Shown here piece by piece: positions 48,045-63,250 of a DNA stretch of 64,000 bases. Origin of the DNA: Deltaproteobacteria bacterium. GTDB taxonomy: Bacteria; Desulfobacterota; Desulfobacteria; Desulfobacterales; SURF-15. The stretch is from contig JAFDFZ010000015.1 of the NCBI GenBank assembly GCA_019309565.1, forward strand, positions 1 through 64,000. Reading direction: 5' to 3'. The notes below the pieces were generated by a model. That model was not told the DNA's origin. It did no database searches and saw nothing but the letters and a program-made list of their open reading frames with translations. Numbering within the stretch: the stretch's first letter is position 1; every line of letters starts with the position of its first letter. Both the position numbers and the translations under genes were made by a program.

Positions 48045-50009
48045 CTACTTCAAACCGATTTTCCAGTTCCACAACCCCTGTCTTTTTTTCATGTTTACAG
48101 TGCGCGGCACCGGCTGCCGCAGATTCACAAACAGGCTGTATCCGGCCGATTTGAGCTGCTGCCTTTTATCAGTAAGATCAATCGGCCAGTTGGGATAGAG
48201 CCAAAAAGTCGAACCGTGTTCCGACACCCAGGCCAGTTCACCTTTGGGGCTGGTGAAGGGTATGTTAGTTTTTATTTTCCGGCTAAGCGTGCGAGCGACA
48301 CACAGCGGCCAGTTTCCCGAAACAACTATTCCTAAGGGCAGCGGGCTTTGTTTCGGCAGTTTGAGGTAATCTTCTCCTCCCAGCTCGGGGCTGACGATAA
48401 CCCCTGTGAAGCCAAGCGACGATAGCGCCTCGATTGCCAGTGCATTAGCGATGTTGCAAAAAGGTCCTGCCCACAGGGCAAGTCGAGGGCTTTTTTCAAA
48501 AAAGCAGATCTGCCAGGGGGCGTTTAGCACAAAACTGTGGGCTCCCTTTTTCAGCACCTCCTCGATTTGTGCTTTCAACTCTTCTATTTCCTCCGGCCAG
48601 ATAACCGGTGGAAGCCACCACCAGATATCGGTTGCAGCTTGCTCAGGCAGCGTTTCAGCGGAAAGCCAAAGCCCGATGCGGTTTTTTGCGCCTGTTTGAT
48701 CCAATGATCGGTACACCGTGATTTCTTTTATGGATTTTCTCTTTGTCGGCCGCCAAGAAAGTTTCGCCTGAAACGCCCCCCGCACTTTTGGTAAAAGAGG
48801 AACGTTTCCAAGTTCTTTTTCAAGATTTCGTATCATCTCCTCCAGCGCCCCTTCCCGTCGATCGATGAGAAACACCGATGTACCCTTCGGGGCAGAGCAG
48901 TGGATCGACGGATCGAGATAATAGTGTCCGTTTTTAGGAACGTATCGATTCACTTTGCAGATATGATGCCAGCGTTGATCTTCGTATCCGATGCGCAACA
49001 CATCACCGCGCATAAGATTTAATTTTGGAGAGATGAAAGTTTTCCTTCCACCGCCTTCTGTTTTACCGACCAGCAATCCGGAAGCGGTTTGGTCATCGTC
49101 GCTGACGGGATTTTGTGGCCTCTGAGGTAAGAAGCGATAGTGGGTGGTCTTTCGACCCAAAGACTGTTCAAGAAGCAGCAATGCTTCTTTTTTCGCTTGG
49201 GGATCTGTTCCATGATCTCTGAGCATCTGATAGGCCTTTACCGTATAGAAAACATAATGGGGGCCTTTTTTACGCCCCTCTATTTTCCAGCCGCTGATCT
49301 GCGGGATGTTCAAAAGCACCTTCACCAAAACATCCAGGCTCAGATCCTGGCACGAGAAACTTCTGGCCTCTCGGTTCTCTTGCCGGTAAACCCGGCGGCA
49401 GGGCTGGACGCAACGGCCCCGCAGGCCGCTTTTTCCACCCAAATAACTGCTCCAGTAACATCTTCCGGATATTCCATAGCAAAGGGCGCCATGGACGAAT
49501 ATTTCAAGCTCCAAACCTTCCGGGCAGCCCCTCGCCATGGCCCTGACCTCATCGATACAAAGCTCCCTGGGCACCACCACGGCCTTTACGCCAAGCTTGT
49601 TTCGAACAACGGGCAATGCCTCTGGAAAACTCACATTGGCCAGGGTAGACAAAACGAGATCCCCGGTAAAATCGGCTTGCCGCGCAACGGAGATGAGGGC
49701 CAGATCCTGGATAATTAAAGCATCGGGCCTGGCAAAACGATTGAGTCGTTTTATTAAATCACCCACTTCGTCCAGTTCGGCCGGTATCATCATGGTGTTG
49801 ACGGTGATGAAGACCTTTGCTCCCTTTTCATGTGCAAGGGGTATAAGTGTCGTCAGTTCTGCAATGGTAAAGTTTTGCGCTCCCATGCGGGCAGAGTGTT
49901 TCTTTAAGCCGCAGTATATGGCTTCAGCTCCGGCGGCTAAAGCCGCAAGGAAAGATTCTCTGTTTCCGGCAGGCGCTAGAATCGACGGTTGTAAAGAATC
50001 AGCTCGCAT
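48045..50009 (-). CDS. U32 family protein (RlhA/TrhP-like RNA hydroxylation)
   Basis: Although named peptidase family U32, characterised members (RlhA, TrhP) hydroxylate cytidine in 23S rRNA or uridine in tRNA using prephenate. The 654 residues start with the TIM-barrel-like SILAPAGNRESFLAALAAGA and hold the diagnostic IFVHGALCYGISGRCYWSSY, with further cysteines in GRCVQPCRR, four cysteines that likely bind an iron-sulfur cluster. The C-terminal 350 residues are an extension. The gene ends two bases from the convergent small gene; which RNA it acts on cannot be said. Confidence 0.82.
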   Translation of the reverse strand: MRADSLQPSILAPAGNRESFLAALAAGAEAIYCGLKKHSARMGAQNFTIAELTTLIPLAHEKGAKVFITVNTMMIPAELDEVGDLIKRLNRFARPDALIIQDLALISVARQADFTGDLVLSTLANVSFPEALPVVRNKLGVKAVVVPRELCIDEVRAMARGCPEGLELEIFVHGALCYGISGRCYWSSYLGGKSGLRGRCVQPCRRVYRQENREARSFSCQDLSLDVLVKVLLNIPQISGWKIEGRKKGPHYVFYTVKAYQMLRDHGTDPQAKKEALLLLEQSLGRKTTHYRFLPQRPQNPVSDDDQTASGLLVGKTEGGGRKTFISPKLNLMRGDVLRIGYEDQRWHHICKVNRYVPKNGHYYLDPSIHCSAPKGTSVFLIDRREGALEEMIRNLEKELGNVPLLPKVRGAFQAKLSWRPTKRKSIKEITVYRSLDQTGAKNRIGLWLSAETLPEQAATDIWWWLPPVIWPEEIEELKAQIEEVLKKGAHSFVLNAPWQICFFEKSPRLALWAGPFCNIANALAIEALSSLGFTGVIVSPELGGEDYLKLPKQSPLPLGIVVSGNWPLCVARTLSRKIKTNIPFTSPKGELAWVSEHGSTFWLYPNWPIDLTDKRQQLKSAGYSLFVNLRQPVPRTVNMKKRQGLWNWKIGLK

Positions 50010-50253: not shown

Positions 50254-50332
50254 AAGATGGGTTGTAAGCCTTAAACTCCGAACCCTGAGCCTGAAACCCG
50301 ATTGGTTTAGGTTAACCAAATTGGAATGTGTT

Positions 50333-50734
50333 ATGGCTTCGAGACGGCAATTTATGGCAGCAGTGTCCGGGCTTTTTATAGGGTGTTTATTTTCTTCTCC
50401 GGGCCGCTCACAACAGACCAGGGCGGATTTTAAACATTTTTTGGGTAACCTTGAACTCGACACCCTAATTAACTCTACTCCCAGAAAAGATCCGGCTTTT
50501 GTGTTGAAAAAGACAGATCAATCTTTCACCTTGTTTCGAAAGGGTTCGTTTCGTCCGATATGCAAGATTAATCGGACAGGGAAAATCCTCTGGGAGCTAT
50601 GTGATGGAACAAGATCTCCTCTTGAGCTCTCGGCAATCATTCATAAAACTCATCGGGTGGATCCACATCAAGCATATGTGGATTGCCTCCTGTTCCTCGG
50701 GTTGCTTAAAAACAAAGGTGCCGTTCTAATCTGA
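50333..50734 (+). CDS. PqqD-domain protein with Tat-type signal
   Basis: First gene of the left arm. From ATG 50333 the protein starts MASRRQFMAAVSGLFIGCLF, a twin-arginine (S-R-R-x-F) signal with a short hydrophobic core; the cysteine could be a lipid anchor, though the lipobox is not ideal. Residues about 55-130 are PqqD-like (GKILWELCDGTRSPLELSAI; AYVDCLLFLGLL). PqqD proteins normally chaperone precursor peptides in the cytosol, so an exported one is unexpected. A TTG at 50321 could add four residues. It is 6 bases from the next PqqD gene. Confidence 0.72.
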   Translation: MASRRQFMAAVSGLFIGCLFSSPGRSQQTRADFKHFLGNLELDTLINSTPRKDPAFVLKKTDQSFTLFRKGSFRPICKINRTGKILWELCDGTRSPLELSAIIHKTHRVDPHQAYVDCLLFLGLLKNKGAVLI

Positions 50735-50740
50735 TCTACA

Positions 50741-51019
50741 ATGTCCTGCCGCTTTAGAAAAAATGAACATGTCATCATAAGAGAAGAGCAAGGTGGCGCT
50801 TTTCTTTTTGATCCTCAAACCGGGAATCTTAAATACATGAATCCCACCGGCAAAGAGATTTTTTTGATGCTGGAAACAGGTAATACTGAAACAGAGATGG
50901 TAGAAACCTTCAAACGCCGATATCCAGAAATATCTTCTGAACAGTGCCGGTTGGATGTCCAGAGTTTTCTTAAGCAGTTAGAGGAAAACAGGTTTATCAT
51001 TAAGCTGATGGGCGGCTGA
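50741..51019 (+). CDS. PqqD-family peptide chaperone
   Basis: A 92-residue stand-alone PqqD domain. The pattern GGAFLFDPQTGNLKYMNPTG followed by KEIFLMLETG and a C-terminal three-helix part with FLKQLEENRFI is typical. Such proteins bind the leader of a ribosomal peptide and present it to a radical SAM enzyme. It lies six bases before the radical SAM gene. No signal sequence is seen, so it should be cytosolic. Confidence 0.85.
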   Translation: MSCRFRKNEHVIIREEQGGAFLFDPQTGNLKYMNPTGKEIFLMLETGNTETEMVETFKRRYPEISSEQCRLDVQSFLKQLEENRFIIKLMGG

Positions 51020-51025
51020 ACCAGA

Positions 51026-52090
51026 ATGATATCTCATTATCCTCTTACAAGCCTTTATCTCTATCTTACCGATGCCTGTAATCTGAGTTGTTCCCATTGC
51101 TGGATTTCTCCGCGCCTTTCAAAACAGCTGCAAAGCGGGATTCCGTTTGAGCCTTTAACAGCCATTATCCATGAAGCAAAGCTCTTAGGATTGCAAAGTG
51201 TCAAACTTACCGGAGGAGAACCTCTTTTATATCGGGAAATAAAAGAACTGCTTGTCTTTTTATCTTCAGAGAACCTGGCTATCTACATTGAAACAAATGG
51301 AACCCTTTTGGACAGTGAGATGATTACCCTGTTGGAGCAGGCTGCTGTTACACAGATTTCGGTAAGTTTAGATAGTGCCAAAGAGAAGATACACGATGCG
51401 ATCCGGGGGGTGAGGGGAGGTTTTCAACAGACACTGAAGGGATTGAGGCTTCTTTCAGAAACCGGTTTGAATTTTCAGATTATCATGACATTGCAGCGAA
51501 AAAACAGCCGAGAGATTCCGACAGTTATCGATCTCTGCCGGTCACTTAAAGTAGGCTCTTTAAAGATCAATCATTTGCTTCCCTGTGGCAGGGGAGCTGA
51601 GGCATACAGAAGAGGGGAGAATCTTACGTTAGAAGAACTGAGGGCACTTTACAGGCAGGTAATGGAAATATCGAAAAAAAATCAAGATCTGGAGGTTGAT
51701 TTTGATATACCTCTGGCATTTCGGTCCATTCAGGATATTACACACAGGGGGATTTGTGAATGTGAAATCCTGAACATACTGGGGATACTGGCAGATGGTG
51801 AATACTCCATATGCGGTATCGGTAAGACTGTGCCGGAACTTCGGATGGGCAATATCTTAAATGATTCTATTCGAGACACATGGCGGCACCATCCTGTGCT
51901 TTCCGATCTGCGCCGGTCGCTTCCCGAAAAACTGCGCGGTATCTGTAAGAATTGTATTTTTAAATTTCAATGCCTTGGCGGGTGTCGTGCCAGTGCATAT
52001 GCCATGGAAAAAGACCTTTACGCCCCTTACTTTTTATGTCAGGCATTATATGATGCAAATCAATTTCCTTCATCAAGATACATCGGATAA
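51026..52090 (+). CDS. Radical SAM/SPASM enzyme (ScmF-like), peptide maturase
   Basis: A 354-residue radical SAM protein. The cluster motif is CNLSCSHC (C18, C22, C25), preceded by TSLYLYLTDA; the SAM-binding VKLTGGEPLLY follows. The C-terminal SPASM domain, for two auxiliary iron-sulfur clusters, is seen in ICECEI, SICGIG and CKNCIFKFQCLGGC. SPASM enzymes usually modify ribosomal peptides, for example by thioether or C-C bonds. The N-terminus resembles ScmF of the SynChlorMet cassette as I remember it. Its likely substrate is the seven-cysteine protein at 53012. Confidence 0.9.
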   Translation: MISHYPLTSLYLYLTDACNLSCSHCWISPRLSKQLQSGIPFEPLTAIIHEAKLLGLQSVKLTGGEPLLYREIKELLVFLSSENLAIYIETNGTLLDSEMITLLEQAAVTQISVSLDSAKEKIHDAIRGVRGGFQQTLKGLRLLSETGLNFQIIMTLQRKNSREIPTVIDLCRSLKVGSLKINHLLPCGRGAEAYRRGENLTLEELRALYRQVMEISKKNQDLEVDFDIPLAFRSIQDITHRGICECEILNILGILADGEYSICGIGKTVPELRMGNILNDSIRDTWRHHPVLSDLRRSLPEKLRGICKNCIFKFQCLGGCRASAYAMEKDLYAPYFLCQALYDANQFPSSRYIG

Positions 52091-52104
52091 GAGAACAGGT
52101 GTTG

Positions 52105-53007
52105 ATGATCCTTGAGTTGGCCGGCTTTTTTATATCCATCGTTTTTTTAGATAAGACAAGGGAAGTTTTGTCTTTTTACGAATATGTGTACCAGAAATTT
52201 TTGATCTCCTCCGCGCAGATCGATGCAAAAATGACTGTTCATACGATAGAAGATTCTTTTGAAAGTTTATTGGATGATATAGATCCGAGCCCGGAAATTT
52301 TGGTTCCAACACCCAGGGTAACGGAATGGTTGAACGCCGGGTTTAAATTTCGAAAAGAGCCCAACATCACTCCGCAAACCATTGCAGTTCGCCTGCTTAA
52401 CGGTCTTTTGCTTTATACCCCCGATTGCAAAGAGGGTAATATCTATCTTTCCGCCGAACCGACATCTAACCCTTATCGTCCGCTTTTTCATCTGTTATGG
52501 ATATTTTTTGCACAGGTGCTGGGTGAATTTGGAGCATGCTTTGTCCATGCGGCCGGATTGGGGAAGGACGATAATGGATATTTGTTCATGGGGCCGCCCG
52601 GAGGAGGTAAAAGTACCATCAGCAGCCTGTGTTCGGGATGCAAAATCCTATCAGACGACAGCCCGATCCTTAAAGCATCAAACGGGAGTGTAAGAATATT
52701 TCCATCCCCCATCCACCAGCTTCCTGCAGAGCAGGCGCCCGGCAATGTCATCGCGCCTTTTGGCATTCCGTTGCGGGGGATCTATTTTATCATACGAGAT
52801 AATGTCGCGTGTTTGAGATCCATATCGCGCTCTGAGGCCCTTGGCGCTATTTTAAGCCATGGTATTCATTATTTCTCTTGCCTTTCTCCATCTGCAAGGG
52901 CGAAACTTTTTGATATTTTTTTAAAATTATGCCATACAATTTCAACTAGTTATCTTCATTTTCAACTGAATACCCGGATTTTCAGCTTAATAACCAGGCA
53001 GGGGTGA
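52105..53007 (+). CDS. HPr-kinase-like ATPase of the peptide cassette (ScmC-like)
   Basis: A P-loop protein of 300 residues. FVHAAGLGKDDNGYLFMGPP leads into GGGKSTISSL (Walker A), followed by CKILSDDSP (acidic Walker B-like residues) and a C-terminal part resembling the HPr serine kinase/phosphorylase fold. It lacks the N-terminal half of true HprK and no HPr or PTS gene is nearby, so it is unlikely to act in sugar transport. Related proteins occur in radical SAM peptide loci; the substrate is unknown. ATG 52105 with AGG five bases upstream is preferred over GTG 52099. It ends five bases before the repeat protein. Confidence 0.75.
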   Translation: MILELAGFFISIVFLDKTREVLSFYEYVYQKFLISSAQIDAKMTVHTIEDSFESLLDDIDPSPEILVPTPRVTEWLNAGFKFRKEPNITPQTIAVRLLNGLLLYTPDCKEGNIYLSAEPTSNPYRPLFHLLWIFFAQVLGEFGACFVHAAGLGKDDNGYLFMGPPGGGKSTISSLCSGCKILSDDSPILKASNGSVRIFPSPIHQLPAEQAPGNVIAPFGIPLRGIYFIIRDNVACLRSISRSEALGAILSHGIHYFSCLSPSARAKLFDIFLKLCHTISTSYLHFQLNTRIFSLITRQG

Positions 53008-53011
53008 TGAT

Positions 53012-53674
53012 ATGTCGAACCAGTCGGACGATTCTAAATCAGGTAAATTTCAGTATGAACCTCCAAGACTTTTTGACTTAAGCGGCAGCGTGGCTTACGC
53101 AGGCAGCAAATGTCAGCCTGGAGGGTCGGCGCCGGGTGGAAAATGTCAACCCGGAGGGGTCGCAGCATCGGGGAAGTGTCAACCAGGCAGTCAGGCAACC
53201 GGCGGGAGCCCACGGCCCGGGCAGAAATGTCAGACCGGAAATTATGCTGCTAGCAAATGCCAGGTTGGCAGTGTAGCATCAGGGGGGAAATGCCAGGTCG
53301 GAGCAACTGCTGCAGGAAAATGTCAGGTCGGCAGCAGCCCATCCGGTAGCAGTGGCAGTGGCAAAAGTTCGAAAACCACCAGAGGTAAGGGCCGGGATAA
53401 AAAGGAGCCGACGGGTTCTGTTGAACCGGGAGGTGTTGAGCCAGAACCCGGCACAGGCGGACAGGAAACGAGTGTCGTCCCAAGCGTCGAACCGACAATC
53501 CCGCAGCCAGGCACAGGAAAGTCTGATAAAGGGAAATCCAAGGCAGACGAAGATAAAGGAAAGAGCGGTGAAGATGAATCGGAATCGACCGGTGAGAAAG
53601 CAACCCCAGGAGTTGAACCCACGGTAACCCCTAAAAGTTCCATGAAACGGGGGAAAGGCAGATCCGTGAAGTAA
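53012..53674 (+). CDS. Seven-cysteine repeat protein, candidate modified-peptide precursor
   Basis: I recognise no named family. Residues 1-31 look like a leader, with YEPPRLFDLSGSVAYAG. Residues 32-107 hold seven units of Lys-Cys-Gln-X-Gly with cysteines at 34, 45, 56, 73, 83, 94 and 104, spaced 11, 11, 17, 10, 11 and 10. X is Pro in the first three, Thr in the fourth and Val in the last three. Residues 118-220 form a cysteine-free tail rich in Lys, Glu, Pro, Thr and Gly. Repeats use different synonymous codons, which points to selection on the protein. No signal peptide is seen. It lies after radical SAM, PqqD and kinase-like genes, so it is probably their substrate. Confidence 0.72.
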   Translation: MSNQSDDSKSGKFQYEPPRLFDLSGSVAYAGSKCQPGGSAPGGKCQPGGVAASGKCQPGSQATGGSPRPGQKCQTGNYAASKCQVGSVASGGKCQVGATAAGKCQVGSSPSGSSGSGKSSKTTRGKGRDKKEPTGSVEPGGVEPEPGTGGQETSVVPSVEPTIPQPGTGKSDKGKSKADEDKGKSGEDESESTGEKATPGVEPTVTPKSSMKRGKGRSVK

Positions 53675-53776: not shown

Positions 53777-54946
53777 TTAGAAACCGCTTGAAAAAAGGCG
53801 ATAAGACAGGGCCTGTTTAATTGCATTTCCAATCATAAACAAGGATTGCACAATCCGATCCATCGATTGAAGGAATCGGCTATTTGCCGTAGATTCCTGG
53901 TATATCTGGGCCATAATCTGATTTGCAGGCAACATAGTTTCTTTGAGAAATTTAAGCTTTCTTTTCATCCCTGTAATTGAAAAAAACCAAAGGATAATGT
54001 GATATCCTGTAAATTCTATACCTTCTATTTTCAGTCGAAGCACGTATTTTTCAAGGGTACCGAGCCTCTGATAACCCAGTTCTTTTTTCACCTCAAAAGG
54101 CATTTGCTGTTTCAGCATCCCCTCCAGCATAGTCAGCGCGTAAAGCACTGTTTTCTCCTGTTGCCAGGATTTCGCGCATGGCACGAGCCGATCCCACTTA
54201 CTGGGGGTAGTGATCAGCTCGGTTAAAGATATATTGAGATCAACCAGCCAGATCATGCGTGAATAGGCATGTTTTAATGTGTGTGCCGCCAGCAATATGA
54301 AGTTATCAGCCGGATCAGGTTTCAACAGCCCACCGGAGGATTTAAAGACAGGGCAGGCTCGATCCCACAGGGGGGAGAGATCCTCTGGGAAAACGTACTT
54401 GCGGCTTTCTATTCGATCGATATTTAAAATATGGGTATGGAGATCCAACCATAATACATCTTTGAAAAATAGGTTTGGGTAGGAGGAATTTGAGATTCGA
54501 AATCCAATCTCATGCAACAGGGCGACAACCCTATCACGCTGATCTACTTTTACCATAATATCCATATCGCCCATGGGTCTTAATCCCGGAAATTTATAAC
54601 TCTGAAACACAGACAGGCCCTGTAAGGCAATAGCCGTAAGCCCGTTGCGTTCTAATTGGAGGGATATGAGTTCGGCTTCATGTTCGATTCTGCTTTGACG
54701 GTTTTTGTGTTTCCGGTAACTATCCTCAAGCAATGTCCAGGCGGATTCCGGGATTTTAGCGCCCTTTAAATGGCATAGATGATGGTAAAGAAGTGAATCC
54801 ACACCCTGGGCCTGGGCAAGGAGCATGATTTGCTCCCATGGCAGATCCTGATCAAGAAATTGCATGATGGATCTTCTCTGTTCCGGATCCAGGTTTAGTC
54901 TTGAGACCGTTCGAATGAATTTTATTATATCCTGCCAGTAGATCAT
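53777..54946 (-). CDS. Nucleotidyltransferase-family protein
   Basis: A 389-residue protein of the type often called nucleotidyltransferase family (PF14907-like). The characteristic block is TAIALQGLSVFQSYKFPGLR followed by PMGDMDIMVK, where the Asp-x-Asp pair would bind metal. Similar proteins sit in many surface-glycan and ribosomal-peptide loci, but their reaction is unknown. ATG 54946 is chosen: it starts five bases after the stop of the radical SAM gene, with GGA ahead; a start at 54997 would overlap by 46 bases. Last gene of the right arm. Confidence 0.75.
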   Translation of the reverse strand: MIYWQDIIKFIRTVSRLNLDPEQRRSIMQFLDQDLPWEQIMLLAQAQGVDSLLYHHLCHLKGAKIPESAWTLLEDSYRKHKNRQSRIEHEAELISLQLERNGLTAIALQGLSVFQSYKFPGLRPMGDMDIMVKVDQRDRVVALLHEIGFRISNSSYPNLFFKDVLWLDLHTHILNIDRIESRKYVFPEDLSPLWDRACPVFKSSGGLLKPDPADNFILLAAHTLKHAYSRMIWLVDLNISLTELITTPSKWDRLVPCAKSWQQEKTVLYALTMLEGMLKQQMPFEVKKELGYQRLGTLEKYVLRLKIEGIEFTGYHIILWFFSITGMKRKLKFLKETMLPANQIMAQIYQESTANSRFLQSMDRIVQSLFMIGNAIKQALSYRLFSSGF

Positions 54947-54951
54947 TTTAC

Positions 54952-56037
54952 TTATTCCGGCAGGGTTCCACCCTGTTCCAAAAATCGTTTCAAGCATGCA
55001 TCAGGACTTGGATGGTTTTCTTTGCCCACAAGAGTATAGGCCAGCGCAGGACAATTTCCTGTACAGTTCATTATAAATTGGCACCCCTTGCAGAATTCAA
55101 AATTCTTCAGTTCAATAAGATGCCTTGTCCGAAGACGGCTAAGCTGTGGGTGATGTGTCCAGATGTGTTGAAGATCGTCTTTATTTACACGGCCCAATTC
55201 GATGTGGCTTAGTTGAATGCAGGGTACCATGATGCCGTCTGAACGTACGCCGATGGTATCGAAGGGACCGCTGCATGCGGAAAGATATCCTCCGCCTGGT
55301 TGTTCCGGGCGGTTATTACCGGAACCTTTAATCATCCTGTTCCATATCTCCGCTTCTGCCAGGGGGCCGGCTGCAGCCGTAATACGCCCTTCATATTTTC
55401 GGTTCAATTCTTTAAGTGCTTTCATGGCAAATGAACGCTCTTTTACTGAAAGCTGAACAAGCCTGGTGTTTGAACGACAAAGCCCCATATAGCTTGCCGC
55501 ATTGGTGGAAAATGATTGAAGGCCGAGATCTTCTAAAAGCAATTTTGCTATGGATTCAAGCTCCCTAACATTCTCCTTATGGATCGTAACCCTAACGGTT
55601 ACCGGTACGGATTTAGACTTTAGATTTTCGATTCCTCTGATGGCTCTAAAAAAATTACCTTTGCCCCGGAAAGCATCGTGAGTAACGGGGATCGATCCGT
55701 CTATTGATACCTGAACCACGTCACATCTTCTGGTTTCGGCTATGAACGCAGCATTCTCTTGAGTTATCAGGGTGCCGTTGGTTAGAATGGAGAACCGCAT
55801 GCGGTTTTTTATAATTCCTTCAAGCAGTTTTTTAAAGTCTTTTCGGCAGAAAGGCTCTCCGCCCTGGAGAATAACATCCATTACAGCACAGCGGTTTAAC
55901 TCCCTGAAAAATCGAAGCCATTCATCTGCCGGCAGATCATTGTTCACATCCCCATGGCCGGTAAAGTGGCTGCAATATGAACATCGAAGGTTGCATCGGC
56001 CGGTTATGGCGATATCAACGGTTCGGGGTGTTCTCAT
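54952..56037 (-). CDS. Radical SAM/SPASM enzyme (ScmE-like), peptide maturase
   Basis: The second radical SAM enzyme of the cassette (361 residues). It begins MRTPRTVDIAITGRCNLRCS, with the cluster cysteines C15, C19 and C22; VILQGGEPFCRKDF binds SAM. The SPASM region has SACSGPFDTIGV, VPCIQLSH and CKGCQFIMNCTGNC. It strongly recalls the ScmE family. ATG 56037 is preferred over TTG 56067 because the family begins near it. Two SPASM enzymes of different families in one locus suggest two successive modifications of one precursor. Confidence 0.88.
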   Translation of the reverse strand: MRTPRTVDIAITGRCNLRCSYCSHFTGHGDVNNDLPADEWLRFFRELNRCAVMDVILQGGEPFCRKDFKKLLEGIIKNRMRFSILTNGTLITQENAAFIAETRRCDVVQVSIDGSIPVTHDAFRGKGNFFRAIRGIENLKSKSVPVTVRVTIHKENVRELESIAKLLLEDLGLQSFSTNAASYMGLCRSNTRLVQLSVKERSFAMKALKELNRKYEGRITAAAGPLAEAEIWNRMIKGSGNNRPEQPGGGYLSACSGPFDTIGVRSDGIMVPCIQLSHIELGRVNKDDLQHIWTHHPQLSRLRTRHLIELKNFEFCKGCQFIMNCTGNCPALAYTLVGKENHPSPDACLKRFLEQGGTLPE

Positions 56038-56068
56038 CACCCTTGTTTTATTGCCGGAGTGCTGCAAT

Positions 56069-56341
56069 TTATTCTATGTAACCCTTGTTTTTAAGATCGC
56101 CAAGAAACGCCTTTACATGCTCTGGTGCCTCTGCAGGAACGTTGGCAAACCGATTAATTGTGGCATTGACGATTTCCCTTTCCGTATGCCGTCCATCAAG
56201 CAGCTTCCAGATATAAACACCCACGGGGTTTAAGGCAAAGGTATCACCTGTATCCGGATCATATAACAGGGTCTGATCATCAAATTCCTCACGCAGTACT
56301 ATGGACGGGCTGGCTTTTATTTTCTCTTTTTTATGGTTCAA
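56069..56341 (-). CDS. PqqD-family peptide chaperone (ScmD-like)
   Basis: The 90 residues show a PqqD domain: SIVLREEFDDQTLLYDPDTG and ALNPVGVYIWKLLDGRHTER, ending GDLKNKGYIE. This resembles ScmD, partner of ScmE. The only usable start appears to be TTG 56341, with AGGA too close for an ideal ribosome-binding site. It lies 37 bases after the O-antigen-ligase-like gene on the same strand and directly before the radical SAM gene, so the pair is likely co-expressed. Confidence 0.83.
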   Translation of the reverse strand: MNHKKEKIKASPSIVLREEFDDQTLLYDPDTGDTFALNPVGVYIWKLLDGRHTEREIVNATINRFANVPAEAPEHVKAFLGDLKNKGYIE

Positions 56342-56378: not shown

Positions 56379-57791
56379 CTATGCTTGAGCGGTTTTAAGG
56401 GAAGGTGGTTGTTGTAAGCCGGCGTAGTATTGTCTGGAATCTACAGCCGGCAACGCAAAAATAATTGCAGCCACAAGCCAGAAAGATTCCATAATACGAA
56501 CGATGATAAAGGTGTTGGCTCCGATGGCATGGAACAGAAGGCCGATGTATCCTGCCATAAATCCGGCAACAAGCCCTTTGTAATAGGGAGTGAGCACCTG
56601 GCGGGAGGTCTGGATGGCCAGTTTAAATATCGAAATTACAAGATACATGAACACCACAAACCCTACAGCACCGGTTTCAACTAAAACCCGCAGGTACTGG
56701 GCGTCTATGAATCCGAATCCGGTCACCCCGTATCCGAACACCGGCCGTTGTATCATGCCCAGGGCAGCCTTCTCCCATGAACTAAGCCTGGCAGAAAGAG
56801 AAGTATCAAGCCGGATATCTCCAAGCTTAATCTGGCCTGCCCTTTCGGCCTGGCTTACTGTAAATTTTATACGATCGATGACCGCTTTAGGTAGAAGAAA
56901 CGGGCTTAGCAGCAATATGGATATCATAAGCCCGATGAGAATAACTCGTCTGGTACTGCGAAAAATAAGGTAGAGGCTTGCCGGAATCATGGCCAGATAT
57001 GTGGATCGGGATTGCGTGTAGAGCAAAGGAGGAATTATGGTAACAATCAAGATGCCCAGGAAGATTTTTGCCCTTGAATCCTCGATTTTCGGAAAAAGCC
57101 CCACTGCTACCGCCCCGACAAACAGCAGGTATCCGCCGAATGTATTCGGCTCTCCGGCTTCTCCTTCAAACGGAGCGGTGACCCTTCCACCCGCGGGGAT
57201 CTGCATCATCCCGTATATTGCAACAATAAAACAGGTGACGAACAGACAGAAAAGAAACCGATTGATCTGCTCTCTGTTTTCAAGATGATTCACCATCATA
57301 AAATAGACGATAAAGTATTCAAAGTATTTAAGTACATAGAAAAATCCGACTTTTGCATCCACCCGCTCCCCCATAATCCCAAGTGAGGTGGAAAAAAGAC
57401 ATGCGATAAGATAAAAGAAAATGGGTTTATTTAGCGGTGTTTTTAAGAACAGCCCAAGCTCCTTATTTATGGCTGTCTTTGCAAACCAGCTGGCTCCGAT
57501 TACAAGCAGAAGAAAGTCATCCAGCCGAACGGTAACCCCTCCTCTCTGAGCCACCTCCCCTCCGGCCGTACCGACGATGAACTCAGTAGAAAGCAGCATA
57601 GAGAACACAAGCAAATAGAGGCCCAATTCCGTCTTGATAAAAGATACGATAAACAGAGTAAGCCCAAGAGCCAGTGAAATCATGGTGCGAGATGAGAATT
57701 GGGTGAGCATCATGCCTACAGTAAGTGCAATCACAAGAAAAAAGATCAAGGCAAGTAGCTGTTTAAACATGGAATGAGACACAGATATCAT
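56379..57791 (-). CDS. O-antigen ligase/polymerase-like membrane protein
   Basis: A polytopic inner-membrane protein of about 470 residues with roughly ten to twelve hydrophobic segments. The Wzy_C-like region is seen as LYTQSRSTYLAMIPASLYLI followed by RPVFGYGVTGFGF and a large periplasmic loop. Such proteins polymerise or ligate surface polysaccharide. ATG 57791 lies just after the kinase stop; a TTG at 57824 would overlap the kinase gene. It connects the polysaccharide genes to the right arm of the peptide cassette. Confidence 0.82.
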   Translation of the reverse strand: MISVSHSMFKQLLALIFFLVIALTVGMMLTQFSSRTMISLALGLTLFIVSFIKTELGLYLLVFSMLLSTEFIVGTAGGEVAQRGGVTVRLDDFLLLVIGASWFAKTAINKELGLFLKTPLNKPIFFYLIACLFSTSLGIMGERVDAKVGFFYVLKYFEYFIVYFMMVNHLENREQINRFLFCLFVTCFIVAIYGMMQIPAGGRVTAPFEGEAGEPNTFGGYLLFVGAVAVGLFPKIEDSRAKIFLGILIVTIIPPLLYTQSRSTYLAMIPASLYLIFRSTRRVILIGLMISILLLSPFLLPKAVIDRIKFTVSQAERAGQIKLGDIRLDTSLSARLSSWEKAALGMIQRPVFGYGVTGFGFIDAQYLRVLVETGAVGFVVFMYLVISIFKLAIQTSRQVLTPYYKGLVAGFMAGYIGLLFHAIGANTFIIVRIMESFWLVAAIIFALPAVDSRQYYAGLQQPPSLKTAQA

Positions 57792-57795
57792 GTGC

Positions 57796-60102
57796 TTAGA
57801 AAAATTCCTTCCAGAATATGCCAAGTATCAGCAAAAAGGCTGAAAGAGCAAGCGCCAGCATGGGGTAGTATCTGGAATATTTTTTGAATGTCTTGGAAAC
57901 CTTCTGTAGGATCTTTACATAAAAAGGCTTTCTTTCAATACTCTCTTTTCTGTCGCGTCCGTAATAGTACTGGGTATGATATTTGAAATAGTCCGGACCT
58001 ATTTCAGGTCTTACATTGTTTAGAATAACACCGGTTACTTTTGCTTCAATATTGTCCAGAGTAGCCTTTGCTCTTTTAAGAACCCCCCGGCCGATTTGCC
58101 CCACCTTATAGACCAGCAGCACCCCGTCCACATGCGGGGCTATCTCTGTGGCATCCACTACCGGCAATATTGGAGGAACGTCTAAAAAGACGAAATCGTA
58201 TTGTTTCTTTGCTTCTTTAAGGAATTCATAGAAAACAGCAGAGCGCAGAATTTCACTTGGGTTTGGCGGGATGGTGCCCGCTGTCATGATGTGTAAATTA
58301 TCGAGCCCGGGAGTTCGTAGAATCTCATCAATATCCAGCTCCCCCAGCATCACATCGGTTATCGTGTTTATAGCCTCTTTCCATTGGTAATTTCCCAGCA
58401 CGATATCGGTTAATCCAGGGGATATGGAAAGACCGAACACTTTATGAATAACGGGCTTTCGCAAATCCGCCTCTATCAGCAGCACTTTTTCTCCGGACTG
58501 GGCCATGCTCAAGGATGTGTTAACCGCAACGAAGGTTTTGCCTTCCTGTATAAAAGAGCTTGTAATGACGAATACTGTCTCGTTTCTATCACGTTTAATA
58601 AACTGCAGATTTGCTCTTAAGGCTCTAAAAGATTCCGCTGACAGGGATTTTGGGTCGTAATGGGTTACCAGATAGTAAGATCGATCGGTTCCCGATGGGC
58701 CCGCATCTTTACGATCGCCTTCCTTGATATCGAGAAAGGGTATCAAGCCCTGTACCGAAACCCCTATCAGGGCTTCAACATCCTCTATGGTTCCTATGGA
58801 TGTGTCAAGTGTTTCCATAACAAAGGAAAGCACAAGCCCGATAATAAGACCCAGCACTATACCGGTTCCAACTATCATCATTGCAGACTGGCGATTTGTC
58901 GGAACCGTTGGCACCAGGGCCGGACGAACAATGGTCACCTCCTCTATCCTTCCTGATACTTGAATCTGGATTTCCTGGTGCCTCGCTTTGAGTTGCTGAT
59001 AGAGAGATTCCTGTAACTTCACCTCCCGTTCGAGACGGGCGAGCTGTAGCGCTTTTTCGGCGAGCTGTAGCGCTTTTTCGGGAATATGTCTGTTCTCTTG
59101 TCTTAATCTTTCCAGTTTTTCTAAAATCGCGTTTTCACGCTTGGCCAGATTCTTTATAAGGCTCTTGACCTCATTTTCCATATCGGTTATAAGCATTTTA
59201 ATCTGGTCATTAACATCCACCACATCCGGATGCTTTTCCGTAAAATCGATAAGAAGGGTTTCTCTTTTTCGTTCCAGGTTTTTCAGCTTGGCGCTCATGT
59301 CCTGTAACGGTCTATTGTCAAACAGAAAGAACAGAGCCCCCTTGATTGTTTCCGGCCGGTCCGAAGCATTCCTGAGTTTTTCCAGCACAGATGCGAGCTC
59401 TTTTTTCTGGGTTTGAATTCTTTCATAGGCGGTTTCCGCTGCAGCTATCTGATTTACAATATTGCTCGTACGCGCATTCAAAGCAGTCAGGGCATGGGTT
59501 TCCTGGAAATTTTTAAGCCTCTCCTCTGCCTGTGTAAGCCGCTTCCAGATAATATTGAGCTGGGTTTCAATAAACGCCTGAGCATCAAGGGTCTGTCGGT
59601 TTCTTTCCTTGATGTTAAAGTCCCGAAAGGCATTTGCAATGGAATTGGCCAAAAAGGCAGCTTCCTCATTCTTGCCCGATGTTACAATAATGTTGATAAT
59701 ATTGGTGCCTGCTTCTATTTCGGTGCGGGTCATTGCCTTAAGTCGTGTGATCACAGACAGATAAGACTTGTTTTCGCGAATTTCCCTGTGGCTGATATCT
59801 TTAGGAAGCCAGCCGATTCTTTTTGCCGTGTGTACCAGAACCGGAAAACTTCGAATGATGAAAGCCTGGGTAAGGATGTTCTCATTGGCTCCGAAAAACC
59901 CGGCCCGACCGAATCCGCTGAGCATGCTTGCCGCGCCCTCGATCTTTACCGAAGCAGTGGCTTCATAACGTGGAGCAGGCTCTTTCATCTTGGCGAAGCC
60001 GTAACTGGAAAGCCCCACCATAACAACCATGAAGATGATGGTCAGCTTTCTTTTCCGGATTATTCTCCAGTAATCTCTAAGGTCGACATCGTATTGAGGC
60101 AT
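57796..60102 (-). CDS. Wzz chain-length domain fused to BY-kinase (tyrosine autokinase)
   Basis: The 768 residues combine a Wzz/Wzc-like membrane domain (helices at about 18-36 and 405-430, with a long coiled coil between) and a cytoplasmic BY-kinase. The kinase has a Walker A in TSSFIQEGKTFVAVN, Walker A' in LLIEADLRKP and Walker B in DFVFLDVPP; the tyrosine cluster near the end includes QYYYGRD. It controls polysaccharide polymer length and export. Odd: a further hydrophobic segment (LALALSAFLLILGIFW) follows the tyrosine cluster and ends the protein. A perfect 21-base tandem duplication (59039-59080) repeats EKALQLA in the coiled coil. Confidence 0.88.
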   Translation of the reverse strand: MPQYDVDLRDYWRIIRKRKLTIIFMVVMVGLSSYGFAKMKEPAPRYEATASVKIEGAASMLSGFGRAGFFGANENILTQAFIIRSFPVLVHTAKRIGWLPKDISHREIRENKSYLSVITRLKAMTRTEIEAGTNIINIIVTSGKNEEAAFLANSIANAFRDFNIKERNRQTLDAQAFIETQLNIIWKRLTQAEERLKNFQETHALTALNARTSNIVNQIAAAETAYERIQTQKKELASVLEKLRNASDRPETIKGALFFLFDNRPLQDMSAKLKNLERKRETLLIDFTEKHPDVVDVNDQIKMLITDMENEVKSLIKNLAKRENAILEKLERLRQENRHIPEKALQLAEKALQLARLEREVKLQESLYQQLKARHQEIQIQVSGRIEEVTIVRPALVPTVPTNRQSAMMIVGTGIVLGLIIGLVLSFVMETLDTSIGTIEDVEALIGVSVQGLIPFLDIKEGDRKDAGPSGTDRSYYLVTHYDPKSLSAESFRALRANLQFIKRDRNETVFVITSSFIQEGKTFVAVNTSLSMAQSGEKVLLIEADLRKPVIHKVFGLSISPGLTDIVLGNYQWKEAINTITDVMLGELDIDEILRTPGLDNLHIMTAGTIPPNPSEILRSAVFYEFLKEAKKQYDFVFLDVPPILPVVDATEIAPHVDGVLLVYKVGQIGRGVLKRAKATLDNIEAKVTGVILNNVRPEIGPDYFKYHTQYYYGRDRKESIERKPFYVKILQKVSKTFKKYSRYYPMLALALSAFLLILGIFWKEFF
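59039..59080. repeat. 21-bp perfect in-frame tandem duplication
   Basis: Two identical adjacent 21-base units inside the Wzz/BY-kinase gene encode a duplicated heptad EKALQLA in the coiled-coil region. The exact identity suggests a recent slippage event. Confidence 0.85.
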
Positions 60103-60199
60103 GCATCAAATCCTCAAATAGGTGCTGATTGTTAAACATTAAAGCTGAAAAACGCAGAATCATGTGCAAGGGTGGAAGATCTAAAACCATTGCCTCCAA

Positions 60200-62386
60200 T
60201 CACGGTAGATTTTTAAGAAATTGTAAAGAATCTGGATCTCCATAGGCATCCCGAACCCTTGTAGGCTCAAGCACTAGATCAACCAGCGGGCGGATTTGCT
60301 GCAGAAAGCGGTTGGCACTGCCCAGAATACTGCGTGGCACATATACAAAGTCTCCGTTTAAAAGGGCGATATTCTGTGTCTGATCCCCCTGTTCAAGTAG
60401 CGCCTTTAAGTCAACAGAGATTATTTCAGGGCGAGAAATATCCCCCCTAACAATTTTTGTCTGGCTTCTTTTGGCAAATATCGTAACATCACCTGCCCGG
60501 GAGATAGCATCCAGGATATGAATATTGGGGCCTGTAAAAGCATAAAGCCCGGGATTATTTACCTCTCCGTAAATATAGACTCGATTTTTAGCGGTTACAG
60601 TGCTGGGAACGATTACAAGGTCTCCGTCATCCAAAATAATATCCTGACTGACATCCCCCTGAATGATGACTTTAAAAAGATCGACTATGAAAGTTCGGCC
60701 GTTTTTCCGACGAACGCGAACCCTGTTTAAGTTTGCATCGTTGGTAGGGCCTCCTGCGATATTTATCATTTCAAGCAGGCTGACCTTTCCGGTCAGCGCA
60801 TATCTTCCAGGCCCCGATTGTCTGCCTAGAGCCACGGTTTGAATGGCGCCTGTTAAGGTTACGAACTTGCTGTTGTATCTTTTTACAACCACATCTATTC
60901 GTGGTTTTTTGATAAACGCTTTCAAATCCCTTCTAAGAAGCTTATCCAGCTGAGGTGTGGTAAGCCCTGAAACATAAAGATCCTCTATAAAGGCAAAAGA
61001 TATTCTTCCATCGGATCGAACCGTTATTTCCTCCCTGGTTTTTTTTGTACCTTGCCACAATGTCAATTCCAATACGTCTCCTGGGCCTATTTTATATTGT
61101 GGCTTTCCATCGATGGTAGCGAAAACGGCGTTTTCCCGAACATACTGAGGGCCAATGACAGATTTGGTGCTTGGTATCTGCCTTATCGTTTGAGCACGAG
61201 CAGAAACGGGGAATCCGCCCTGTCCCATCCATACCTTGATACCCTCTCCGAAGCTGGCCGCGCACAGGTCGTTTATGCCATCTCCGTTAATATCTCCGGT
61301 GGTCATGTCGTAATAAAACCCTTCGGATGGAAACCGTCCTCTTATTTCTTCCCAGGAGCCGGCGCCCCTGTTTGCCCAGGCCTTGATTCCTTCATCGTCT
61401 ATGGATCCGGCCAGTATATCGAGCCTGCCGTCTCCATCCATATCTAAAGCAAGCACTTTCCAGAAGCTGCCGGTTAGCGTTGGGCTTGGCGCCTCCTGAA
61501 ACCGCCCCCTGCCGTTTCCAAGAAAAATCTTAACACCTCTGCGATAAGATCCTGTAAGTACATCAAGATTCCCGTCGCCATTTATGTCTGCTGTGCTAAG
61601 CCCGTAAAAGCTTCCCATTTCAACTGGCGCAGTAGATGACCATCCTCCGCTTCCGTCGCCCAGCCACACTCTTAATGCGCCGTTGGTCCCCCAGCCAGCC
61701 GCCGCTATATCCAATCGACCGTCTTTATTGAAGTCTGCCAGGGCCACATCCATGTATATCCCCTCATTGGTAGGGCCTGTTTCAACCGGCCAGTTTCCCT
61801 TACCGTCTCCCAACCAGACTTGAATTCCCCCTTCCAAGAATTCTGTTGAATTGGCGGCAATGATATCTTCGAATCCATCACGGTTTACGTCTTCTGTTTG
61901 AATGTTTTCGAACCTTTTAACCTGGTCAGGCCCGGTGCCGCGGATCCATCTGCGGTTGTCATCATTTATCCAGACCATGATTCCACGAGCTTCCCGCTGG
62001 ACGGAAAATACGATATCAAGGCGGTCATCGGTGTTTATGTCTGCCACCGAAACGGATCGCACATCTGCTTTTATAGGAAGAAATTGATACTCGGGAAACC
62101 CCCCTCGGCCGTCTCCATACCAGATGGCGACCGTTCCCGGCAGATTAGAACCTCCAATGACATCCATATTTCCGTCATTGTCGATATCTGCAAGGACAAC
62201 GCTTCGGTACTGTCCTGAAGTAACAAGACTGCCGGCCTTCTCCCAGTCCGAAGGCTCACTGTCTATGCCGCCCCTTTTTTGCTTTGAACATCCAAAGGAC
62301 ACTATTGCCAAAATGAGCAAAATGCTCATAAACAGAAAAACCAATGTAACACTCTTCATTTTGTATTTCTTAATCGGTCCATCCAT
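60200..62386 (-). CDS. Polysaccharide export lipoprotein with FG-GAP repeat region
   Basis: The 728 residues begin with a signal and probable lipid-attachment cysteine (C33, before SKQKRG). Residues about 55-395 hold seven FG-GAP/VCBS-type repeats with calcium-binding loops such as DIDNDGNMD, DFNKDGRLD, DINGDGNLD and DMDGDGRLD. Residues about 430-520 are a Wza-like polysaccharide export domain (YKIGPGDVLELTLWQGTKKT), followed by two SLBB domains (GPGRYALTGKVSLLEMINIA; VNNPGLYAFTGPNIHILDAI). The export half should form a periplasmic/outer-membrane channel; the repeat half should be a calcium-dependent propeller. The fusion is unusual. Confidence 0.83.
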   Translation of the reverse strand: MDGPIKKYKMKSVTLVFLFMSILLILAIVSFGCSKQKRGGIDSEPSDWEKAGSLVTSGQYRSVVLADIDNDGNMDVIGGSNLPGTVAIWYGDGRGGFPEYQFLPIKADVRSVSVADINTDDRLDIVFSVQREARGIMVWINDDNRRWIRGTGPDQVKRFENIQTEDVNRDGFEDIIAANSTEFLEGGIQVWLGDGKGNWPVETGPTNEGIYMDVALADFNKDGRLDIAAAGWGTNGALRVWLGDGSGGWSSTAPVEMGSFYGLSTADINGDGNLDVLTGSYRRGVKIFLGNGRGRFQEAPSPTLTGSFWKVLALDMDGDGRLDILAGSIDDEGIKAWANRGAGSWEEIRGRFPSEGFYYDMTTGDINGDGINDLCAASFGEGIKVWMGQGGFPVSARAQTIRQIPSTKSVIGPQYVRENAVFATIDGKPQYKIGPGDVLELTLWQGTKKTREEITVRSDGRISFAFIEDLYVSGLTTPQLDKLLRRDLKAFIKKPRIDVVVKRYNSKFVTLTGAIQTVALGRQSGPGRYALTGKVSLLEMINIAGGPTNDANLNRVRVRRKNGRTFIVDLFKVIIQGDVSQDIILDDGDLVIVPSTVTAKNRVYIYGEVNNPGLYAFTGPNIHILDAISRAGDVTIFAKRSQTKIVRGDISRPEIISVDLKALLEQGDQTQNIALLNGDFVYVPRSILGSANRFLQQIRPLVDLVLEPTRVRDAYGDPDSLQFLKNLP

Positions 62387-62455
62387 TGGTTTAGCACATG
62401 ATTTATCAGTACCTGGCAGTTGTCTCTTTTTGAGTCGTTTTTAAACAACGAGGAC

Positions 62456-63250
62456 TCACCTGATTTCTTCTATAGCCTCATTTACAATCTTTGAATCGAT
62501 AAGTCTTGCTTCCCTTATAGAGCCTATCAATAGACATAAATCACAAATATTGTTGATCTTCAACGGTATTCCCCCTGAATGCCGGTAGATGGTTAATGCG
62601 GCTTCCCTGGAAAATATTCCCCGGTTCGTTCCTGCTGCTTTTAACTTAAAAACAATATATTTCAATGTATTCTGGGAATCTAAAGGCTGCAGGTGGTATT
62701 TGATACCGATTCTTTCTTTAAGCGGCTGAATCGATTCAACCGTTGCCAACAATGGAGGTTGTCCCAATAACACTAGCGTCACCAGAAACCTGTCGCCTGC
62801 CTGGAGATTGAGCAACATTCTCAGCTCGTCAAGGGTTTCCTGTTCCCGGATGACGTGCGCTTCGTCAACCGCAATTACGGTAATAAGCCCTTTTTCTGCA
62901 TTTTTGTGAAACCGTTGATGGAGACGGTTTAACAAGATTGTTTTTGAATCTGAATCCAATTTTTCATTAAATCTAAGCAAAATGGCACGAATCAAATCAA
63001 TGGGAGTTAAGGCAGGGTTAGATAAAATCTGAAAATCAAACTTTCTAGGACTTAATTGTTTTACATAAGTTTTCACAACAGTTGTTTTACCGCTTCCCAC
63101 CTCCCCTGTCAGCATGGCTATTCCTTTGTTATGTTGGCTGGCATACAGAAGCCGTATCAAAGCCTCCTCATGCTGAGGGGATCGAAACATATGTTCTGTC
63201 GGTACGTTTTCAAACGGGGGTTTCTTCAACCCCCAGTAATTTAAATACAT
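62456..63250 (-). CDS. ExeA/GspA-like AAA ATPase of an exopolysaccharide locus
   Basis: A 264-residue AAA protein. It begins MYLNYWGLKKPPFENVPTEH, then Walker A in TGEVGSGKTTVVKTYV, Walker B in VIAVDEAHVI and the sensor region LVLLGQPPL. This order is shared by ExeA of type II secretion and by ATPases of exosortase/exopolysaccharide clusters. It has no periplasmic or membrane domain, unlike ExeA. Given the neighbours it probably serves polysaccharide synthesis or export. Confidence 0.85.
   Translation of the reverse strand: MYLNYWGLKKPPFENVPTEHMFRSPQHEEALIRLLYASQHNKGIAMLTGEVGSGKTTVVKTYVKQLSPRKFDFQILSNPALTPIDLIRAILLRFNEKLDSDSKTILLNRLHQRFHKNAEKGLITVIAVDEAHVIREQETLDELRMLLNLQAGDRFLVTLVLLGQPPLLATVESIQPLKERIGIKYHLQPLDSQNTLKYIVFKLKAAGTNRGIFSREAALTIYRHSGGIPLKINNICDLCLLIGSIREARLIDSKIVNEAIEEIR

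Follow-up and report, generated by a model that had tools for sequence, protein, structure and literature searches.

A protein with seven C-x-x-G units as the very probable precursor in an SCM-type radical SAM cassette with a twin-arginine PqqD protein

What is the role of a 220-residue protein that repeats one short cysteine motif seven times and is encoded among radical SAM genes? The question is raised by the open reading frame at 53012-53674 of a 64,000-nucleotide stretch of DNA from a Deltaproteobacteria bacterium, analysed as a whole and called here the window. The sequence-only reading had proposed a substrate of a radical SAM peptide pathway, and the gene context agrees, as two radical SAM/SPASM genes with full cysteine motifs belong to the same cassette. 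Judged from sequence comparison, the protein very probably belongs to an SCM-type radical-SAM peptide pathway, and we put the probability that it is the precursor acted on by ScmE/ScmF at roughly 90%. SCM stands for SynChlorMet, a cassette type known as an annotation category of NCBIfam.

Gene content of the cassette

50321..50734, + strand: Tat-PqqD, a PqqD/RRE domain after a twin-arginine motif (PF05402, E 1.5e-7, residues 82-134)
50741..51019, + strand: second PqqD/RRE protein, 92 aa (PF05402, 2.6e-14)
51026..52090, + strand: ScmF-like radical SAM/SPASM enzyme, 354 aa (TIGR04251, 337.7 bits, cut-off 400)
52099..53007, + strand: ScmC-like HprK/PEPCK-fold P-loop protein, probable peptide kinase, 302 aa (TIGR04352, 1.5e-7; TIGR04249, 2.2e-5)
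53012..53674, + strand: ScmA-like precursor, 220 aa, with leader 1-30, seven C-x-x-G units and a Cys-free C-terminus
53777..54997, - strand: NTP_transf_5 nucleotidyltransferase-like protein, 406 aa (PF14907, 2.9e-35)
54952..56067, - strand: ScmE radical SAM/SPASM enzyme, 371 aa (TIGR04250, 591.9 bits, cut-off 400)
56069..56341, - strand: ScmD PqqD/RRE protein, 90 aa (TIGR04248, 110.8 bits, cut-off 100)

The five plus-strand genes are closely spaced in this order, while those for ScmD, ScmE and the NTP_transf_5 protein lie on the opposite strand and converge on the precursor side. For Tat-PqqD, the ATG at 50333 is the likelier start. ScmD and ScmE score above the NCBI cut-offs, and the ScmF-like enzyme, the ScmC-like protein and the precursor below theirs. 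The ScmC-like protein stays under both of its cut-offs (TIGR04352 and TIGR04249), with 24 bits of the 125 needed for ScmC; a profile of it matched the HPr kinase structures 2qmh/1jb1 at 4.2e-6, and its AlphaFold2 model (pLDDT 85.9) retrieved PEPCK structures at the top of a Foldseek search and HprK structures lower. The best NCBIfam match of the second PqqD protein was a lasso PqqD model (1e-10, below cut-off). The CxxxCxxC motif and the SPASM cysteine pattern are complete in both ScmE and the ScmF-like enzyme. At the Tat-PqqD end of the cassette there is a gene (48045-50009) with a counterpart at locus L174 (5154-7136; phmmer 893.6 bits), and we take both to be U32-type peptidase-like.

The repeat array of the precursor

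Translation bears out the array as first described: the only cysteines of the protein are residues 34, 45, 56, 73, 83, 94 and 104, each within KCQxG, where x is P, P, P, T, V, V and V in turn. The steps between them are 11, 11, 17, 10, 11 and 10 residues. Among 200,000 shuffles of residues 30-112, one reached seven C-x-x-G and none reached three or more KCQxG; composition is thus no explanation for the units. The codons for K, C, Q and G differ 0 times at positions 1-2 and 38 times at position 3 (84 codon pairs), so that these residues look selected, as the earlier reading had held. The leader carries YEPP at 15-18, within YEPPRLFDL, and AYA at 28-30.

The C-terminal part is indeed free of cysteine; its length, previously given as about 100 residues, is in fact 116. 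Such a tail had been called unusual for precursors of this kind, and it is unique among the 72 distinct ScmA-like ORFs described below, where the number of residues after the last cysteine has a median of 7 and the next longest tail has 25. AlphaFold2, run on a 15-row alignment, predicted no fold for either the array or the C-terminus (pLDDT about 37-56), and in the leader only block 11-20 reached pLDDT 81. A search of the organism's own genome for a second copy recovered only the precursor itself. The 17-residue step (CQPGSQATGGSPRPGQKC in the window) has a parallel of the same kind at locus L180 (CKPGQTASGGSPSAGQSC) and is therefore probably no recent accident; recent decay was rejected as its origin on this ground.

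The ScmA-like family

It had also been suggested that no known family has this exact unit. A family with units of this kind, ScmA (TIGR04252), is however already annotated, and KCQxG is a local form of C-x-x-G. With the curated model the window protein scored 7.1 bits against a cut-off of 35. Ten other ScmA-like ORFs scored singly were likewise all below 35 (best 28.7, five unmatched), 16 of 50 ScmA-like ORFs matched at E<=1, and among 58 relatives 42 matched at E<=10, mostly as noise, and 0 exceeded the cut-off. We worked with a definition of ScmA as a small ORF that has a Y/W-x-x-P leader and C-x-x-G units in series and belongs to a cassette containing ScmE/ScmD, and the window protein has all of these features. 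The corresponding profile was built from 50 ORFs found by a leader-plus-repeat regular expression, and 49 of its 72 distinct matches are such seeds.

Across 387 units of the 72 ORFs the consensus is C-x-x-G(89%)-x-x-A/P(65%), the next cysteine following at 10 residues in 164 of 343 spacings and at 11 in 90, and Y/W-x-x-P precedes the first C-x-x-G in 66 of the 72. The same kinds of leader and repeat are found next to ScmE in methanogens and in bacteria of several phyla. Of 395 genomes from the phylum, 18 had ScmE above its cut-off, and the precursor profile matched in 19 of 291 genomes of the order. A search for related loci from ScmE alone gave no relative; an alignment-based search kept 80 loci, with L065-L095 (31) used as SCM loci and L096-L144 as control, and L067, L073, L078 and L079 were removed before counting as duplicates of L034, L039, L038 and L044, respectively. 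A closely similar cassette was found in a Desulfobacteraceae MAG (L066), where ScmE is 66-67% identical and the precursor has nine units and lacks a long C-terminus. Precursor-like ORFs that are Cys-rich and irregular, with Cys residues side by side in pairs, occur at L038 (7345-7704, 14 Cys) and L047 (70-471, 12 Cys), and in one genome (G573) precursor-like ORFs are scattered on three contigs (L181, L183, L186).

Association of the precursor with radical SAM genes

The earlier reading had advised looking for the repeat next to ScmE/ScmF-type genes in other genomes. Of 53 ScmE genes scoring above 250 bits, 39 have an ScmA-like ORF no more than 8 kb away, as do 22 of the 28 genes flanked by 4 kb or more on each side; these counts cover loci fetched through ScmE alone, from which the precursor profile was partly built. 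With the window and the precursor-fetched loci added, they become 52 of 66 and, for well-flanked genes, 29 of 35. No ScmA was detected near six well-flanked ScmE genes (L039, L095, L046, L048, L089, L055), and for L046 a precursor is present on another contig of the same genome. Conversely, homologues regularly lacking a radical SAM gene would have spoken against a substrate, and 14 of the 19 regions newly fetched with the precursor carry ScmE and/or ScmF. Four of the 19 are short contigs or a contig end: for L181, L182 and L185 the entire contig measures 3.3-5.5 kb, and L186 stops 350 bases past the precursor. The remaining region, L188, was matched weakly (E 7e-4), and its 19.4 kb contain no radical SAM gene. 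A small YEKP ORF with three Cys at L188 (9270-10632) adjoins PqqD and HprK-like genes and is perhaps part of an LPP-like system.

Exopolysaccharide genes in the neighbourhood

Beyond ScmD, at 56379-63250, the window contains genes for a ligase, a chain-length/kinase protein, an export protein and an ExeA-like ATPase, some of these names being our assumption. In a phmmer search at E<=1e-10, genes like them were detected at 12 of the 51 SCM loci that span 10 kb or more and at none of the 38 radical SAM loci used as control (Fisher 9e-4), a comparison in which the window is outside the 51, the control taxa differ and L188 was dropped. The available text of PMC13381572 also places LPP clusters near capsule loci. 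From these observations an extracellular matrix role for the product may be guessed.

Nature of the modification

The exopolysaccharide genes close by and the long hydrophilic C-terminus, which no other ORF of the 72 shares, would suit a repeat protein that serves, without modification, a structural or metal-binding role and stands in the cassette by chance. We regard this as very improbable, since its position, leader and unit are common to ORFs at many ScmE loci and no fold is predicted for it, the alignment used being shallow; an unmodified structural protein was rejected on the lack of a predicted fold together with co-location with the cassette. Modification of the precursor at its cysteines by ScmE/ScmF is, in our estimate, probable, and a thioether at these cysteines, argued from analogous systems, is somewhat favoured. 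An S-Calpha thioether would be the mark of a sactipeptide, and an S-Cbeta or S-Cgamma thioether that of a ranthipeptide. SPASM enzymes catalyse many types of reaction, and so the precursor could instead be an ScmE/ScmF substrate of non-thioether chemistry, for example formylglycine formation, a carbon-carbon link, or another change for which cysteine serves only in recognition. An anaerobic sulfatase-maturating enzyme, which converts Cys to formylglycine, is among the solved relatives of the ScmF-like enzyme (1.9e-7), and Gly+3 and Ala/Pro+6 are conserved besides Cys. We regard such chemistry as a less likely but real alternative. Against it, the top solved-structure match of both enzymes is the sactisynthase SkfB, in the radical SAM core only (ScmF-like, 6.4e-23, residues 4-206; ScmE, 1.1e-18, residues 14-228), and C-x-x-G equals a known sactionine spacing, since in streptosactin an S-Calpha link joins Cys31 to Gly34 (available text of PMC8172795).

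Twin-arginine PqqD proteins and two kinds of cassette

The N-terminus of Tat-PqqD reads SRRQF followed by a hydrophobic stretch, that is, an SRRxF-like motif plus hydrophobic segment, and all 10 aligned homologues have the twin arginines. The corresponding regular expression was passed by 11 of 81 PqqD-like matches versus 38 of 2220 ORFs of 80-250 aa; some of the 11 may be counted among the latter. Of the curated Tat models, PF10518 matched 2 of 10 homologues (best E 0.22) and TIGR01409 1 of 10 (0.019); the window protein matched neither. TatC and one S26 signal peptidase are encoded in the organism's own genome, and the S26 profile had no match among the window ORFs.

Tat-PqqD is present at eleven loci, at one of which (L077) no precursor was detected. 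At the other ten the leader always contains [A/V][Y/H]A, found at only 1 of 47 other loci (L094; Fisher 2.5e-10), and an S26 match above 70 bits occurs at 0 of these 10 versus 35 of the 47 non-Tat loci whose leader was usable (Fisher 1.5e-5). Both Fisher values ignore the shared ancestry of the loci, because of which the association of Tat-PqqD with the leader site is not a set of independent events. Under a looser signal-peptidase rule at a fixed leader position, 11 of 12 Tat-locus leaders fit versus 5 of 54 non-Tat leaders; the twelfth, from the second ScmA of L044, had been cut at a wrong YxxP, and with AYA in its true leader all 12 fit. Among 48 non-Tat loci with a precursor, PqqD matches numbered one in 32, two in 7 and none in 9. 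On the ScmE tree the Tat label changes at least 5 times, at least 3 of these changes being forced by well-supported branches, versus 9.4 for shuffled labels. It thus seems that several ScmE lineages have exchanged the pair or lost it.

At the Tat locus L034 there is an S26-NTP5 fusion that scores 51.5 bits, short of the threshold of 70. As L184, with a second-type leader similar to that of L034 and no Tat-PqqD, also has an S26-NTP5 ORF, we infer that the fusion belongs to the second cassette of L034. S26 peptidase shares one ORF with a weak HprK-like match (E 0.026) at L049 (6617-8128) and with NTP_transf_5 at L068 (14011-16047), fusions that link the peptidase with HprK-like and NTP_transf_5 functions. 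When the Tat-PqqD alignment was searched against 297 genomes, 15 matched at 1e-12, and in four cases the match extended into the Tat part. Three of these had been known before, namely the window and two loci already in the alignment. The fourth, G157, gives an eleventh pair, with the precursor 50 bases downstream of Tat-PqqD and DAQA at the same leader position, where AQA fits A-x-A and lies outside the stricter [Y/H] form. L206 (G157:C34, 2968-5239) and L046 may be the two parts of a split cassette, as Tat-PqqD, precursor and NTP5 share one contig and ScmD/E/F lie on a second contig of that genome.

Proposed pathway

In the pathway that we propose, the Y-x-x-P motif of the leader would dock on PqqD proteins and ScmC would phosphorylate the precursor peptide. 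Both steps are suggested because LPP peptides are analogous: in LPP, an RRE binds the YxxP leader, an HprK-like kinase phosphorylates the peptide, and the leader is removed by a signal-peptidase-like enzyme together with the RRE (available text of PMC13381572). ScmE and ScmF would work along the array and link the sulfur of every Cys to a residue close by. The analogous streptosactin (PMC8172795, available text) suggests the alpha carbon of Gly at +3 as the leading acceptor, a tentative assignment at less than even odds, which would yield separate four-residue rings and a mass change of -2 Da per unit, up to -14 Da.

The modified, protein-sized precursor, which has no evident export signal of its own, may then be held through YxxP by Tat-PqqD and cross the membrane bound to it, with signal peptidase cutting after AYA30. 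The released product would be beaded, hydrophilic and about 190 residues long, and its destination may be the extracellular matrix. In most other SCM cassettes, a dedicated S26 leader peptidase would take the place of the Tat-PqqD route. Export of a radical-SAM RiPP precursor by hitchhiking on Tat-PqqD, with a cut at AYA, is speculative, and we would not bet on it. Curated Tat models match Tat-PqqD weakly or not at all, and an uncleaved hydrophobic segment could simply anchor it. It is a serious possibility that the precursor does not ride with it: Tat-PqqD may act alone outside the cytoplasm or as a membrane-anchored cytoplasmic RRE, and the precursor may leave by another exporter. What speaks for the ride is that A/V-x-A at a fixed leader place accompanies Tat-PqqD, and that a crude ABC ATPase motif search matched at only 3 loci.

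Novelty and significance

What is new here is the existence of window-type cassettes with a PqqD/RRE protein bearing a conserved twin-arginine motif. In the literature searched, with subscription papers mostly outside it, we found no mention of SynChlorMet and no report on ScmE/ScmF radical SAM enzymes, although SCM cassettes span several bacterial phyla and methanogens. Matches for twin-arginine with PqqD, or with a RiPP precursor peptide, were judged unrelated, and among the papers listed by a wider search none combines twin-arginine with RiPP or PqqD. The definition of the unit as C-x-x-G allows precursors to be found where the curated model scores below cut-off, and it predicts one specific bond that can be checked by mass spectrometry. 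If the Tat link is true, it would represent a RiPP export route for which we found no report in the literature searched, and modified protein-sized products could leave the cell.

Comparison with known systems

The SCM cassette (NCBIfam TIGR04248-TIGR04252) is matched in ScmE and ScmD above cut-offs, in ScmF as the best family for the second enzyme, and in a leader and C-x-x-G repeats like those of ORFs at other SCM loci. The window differs in its sub-cut-off ScmA, ScmC and ScmF, the additional Tat-PqqD and second PqqD, the long Cys-free C-terminus of its precursor and the lack of an S26 match. In QHNDH, the radical SAM enzyme QhpD installs Cys thioethers on the gamma-subunit, an exported protein-sized substrate, which resembles what is proposed here; the genes are different, and the system is not known to have a C-x-x-G array.

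With LPP (PMC13381572, available text) the window shares the YxxP leader, a discrete RRE, an HprK-like kinase, an NTP transferase and polysaccharide genes in the neighbourhood. The term 'radical sam' has 0 occurrences in that text, and LPP has a dedicated signal-peptidase-like leader peptidase, whereas none was matched in the window by the S26 profile; a single-sequence search of the organism's own genome for an LPP-type SpI-like leader peptidase, run without a positive control, was also empty. Unlike sactipeptides, for which streptosactin serves as the example (PMC8172795, available text), the window has seven units in series, two maturases and a 220-aa precursor, and the bond here is predicted; the likeness lies in SPASM maturases matching SkfB and in C-x-x-G, which is the Cys31-Gly34 spacing.
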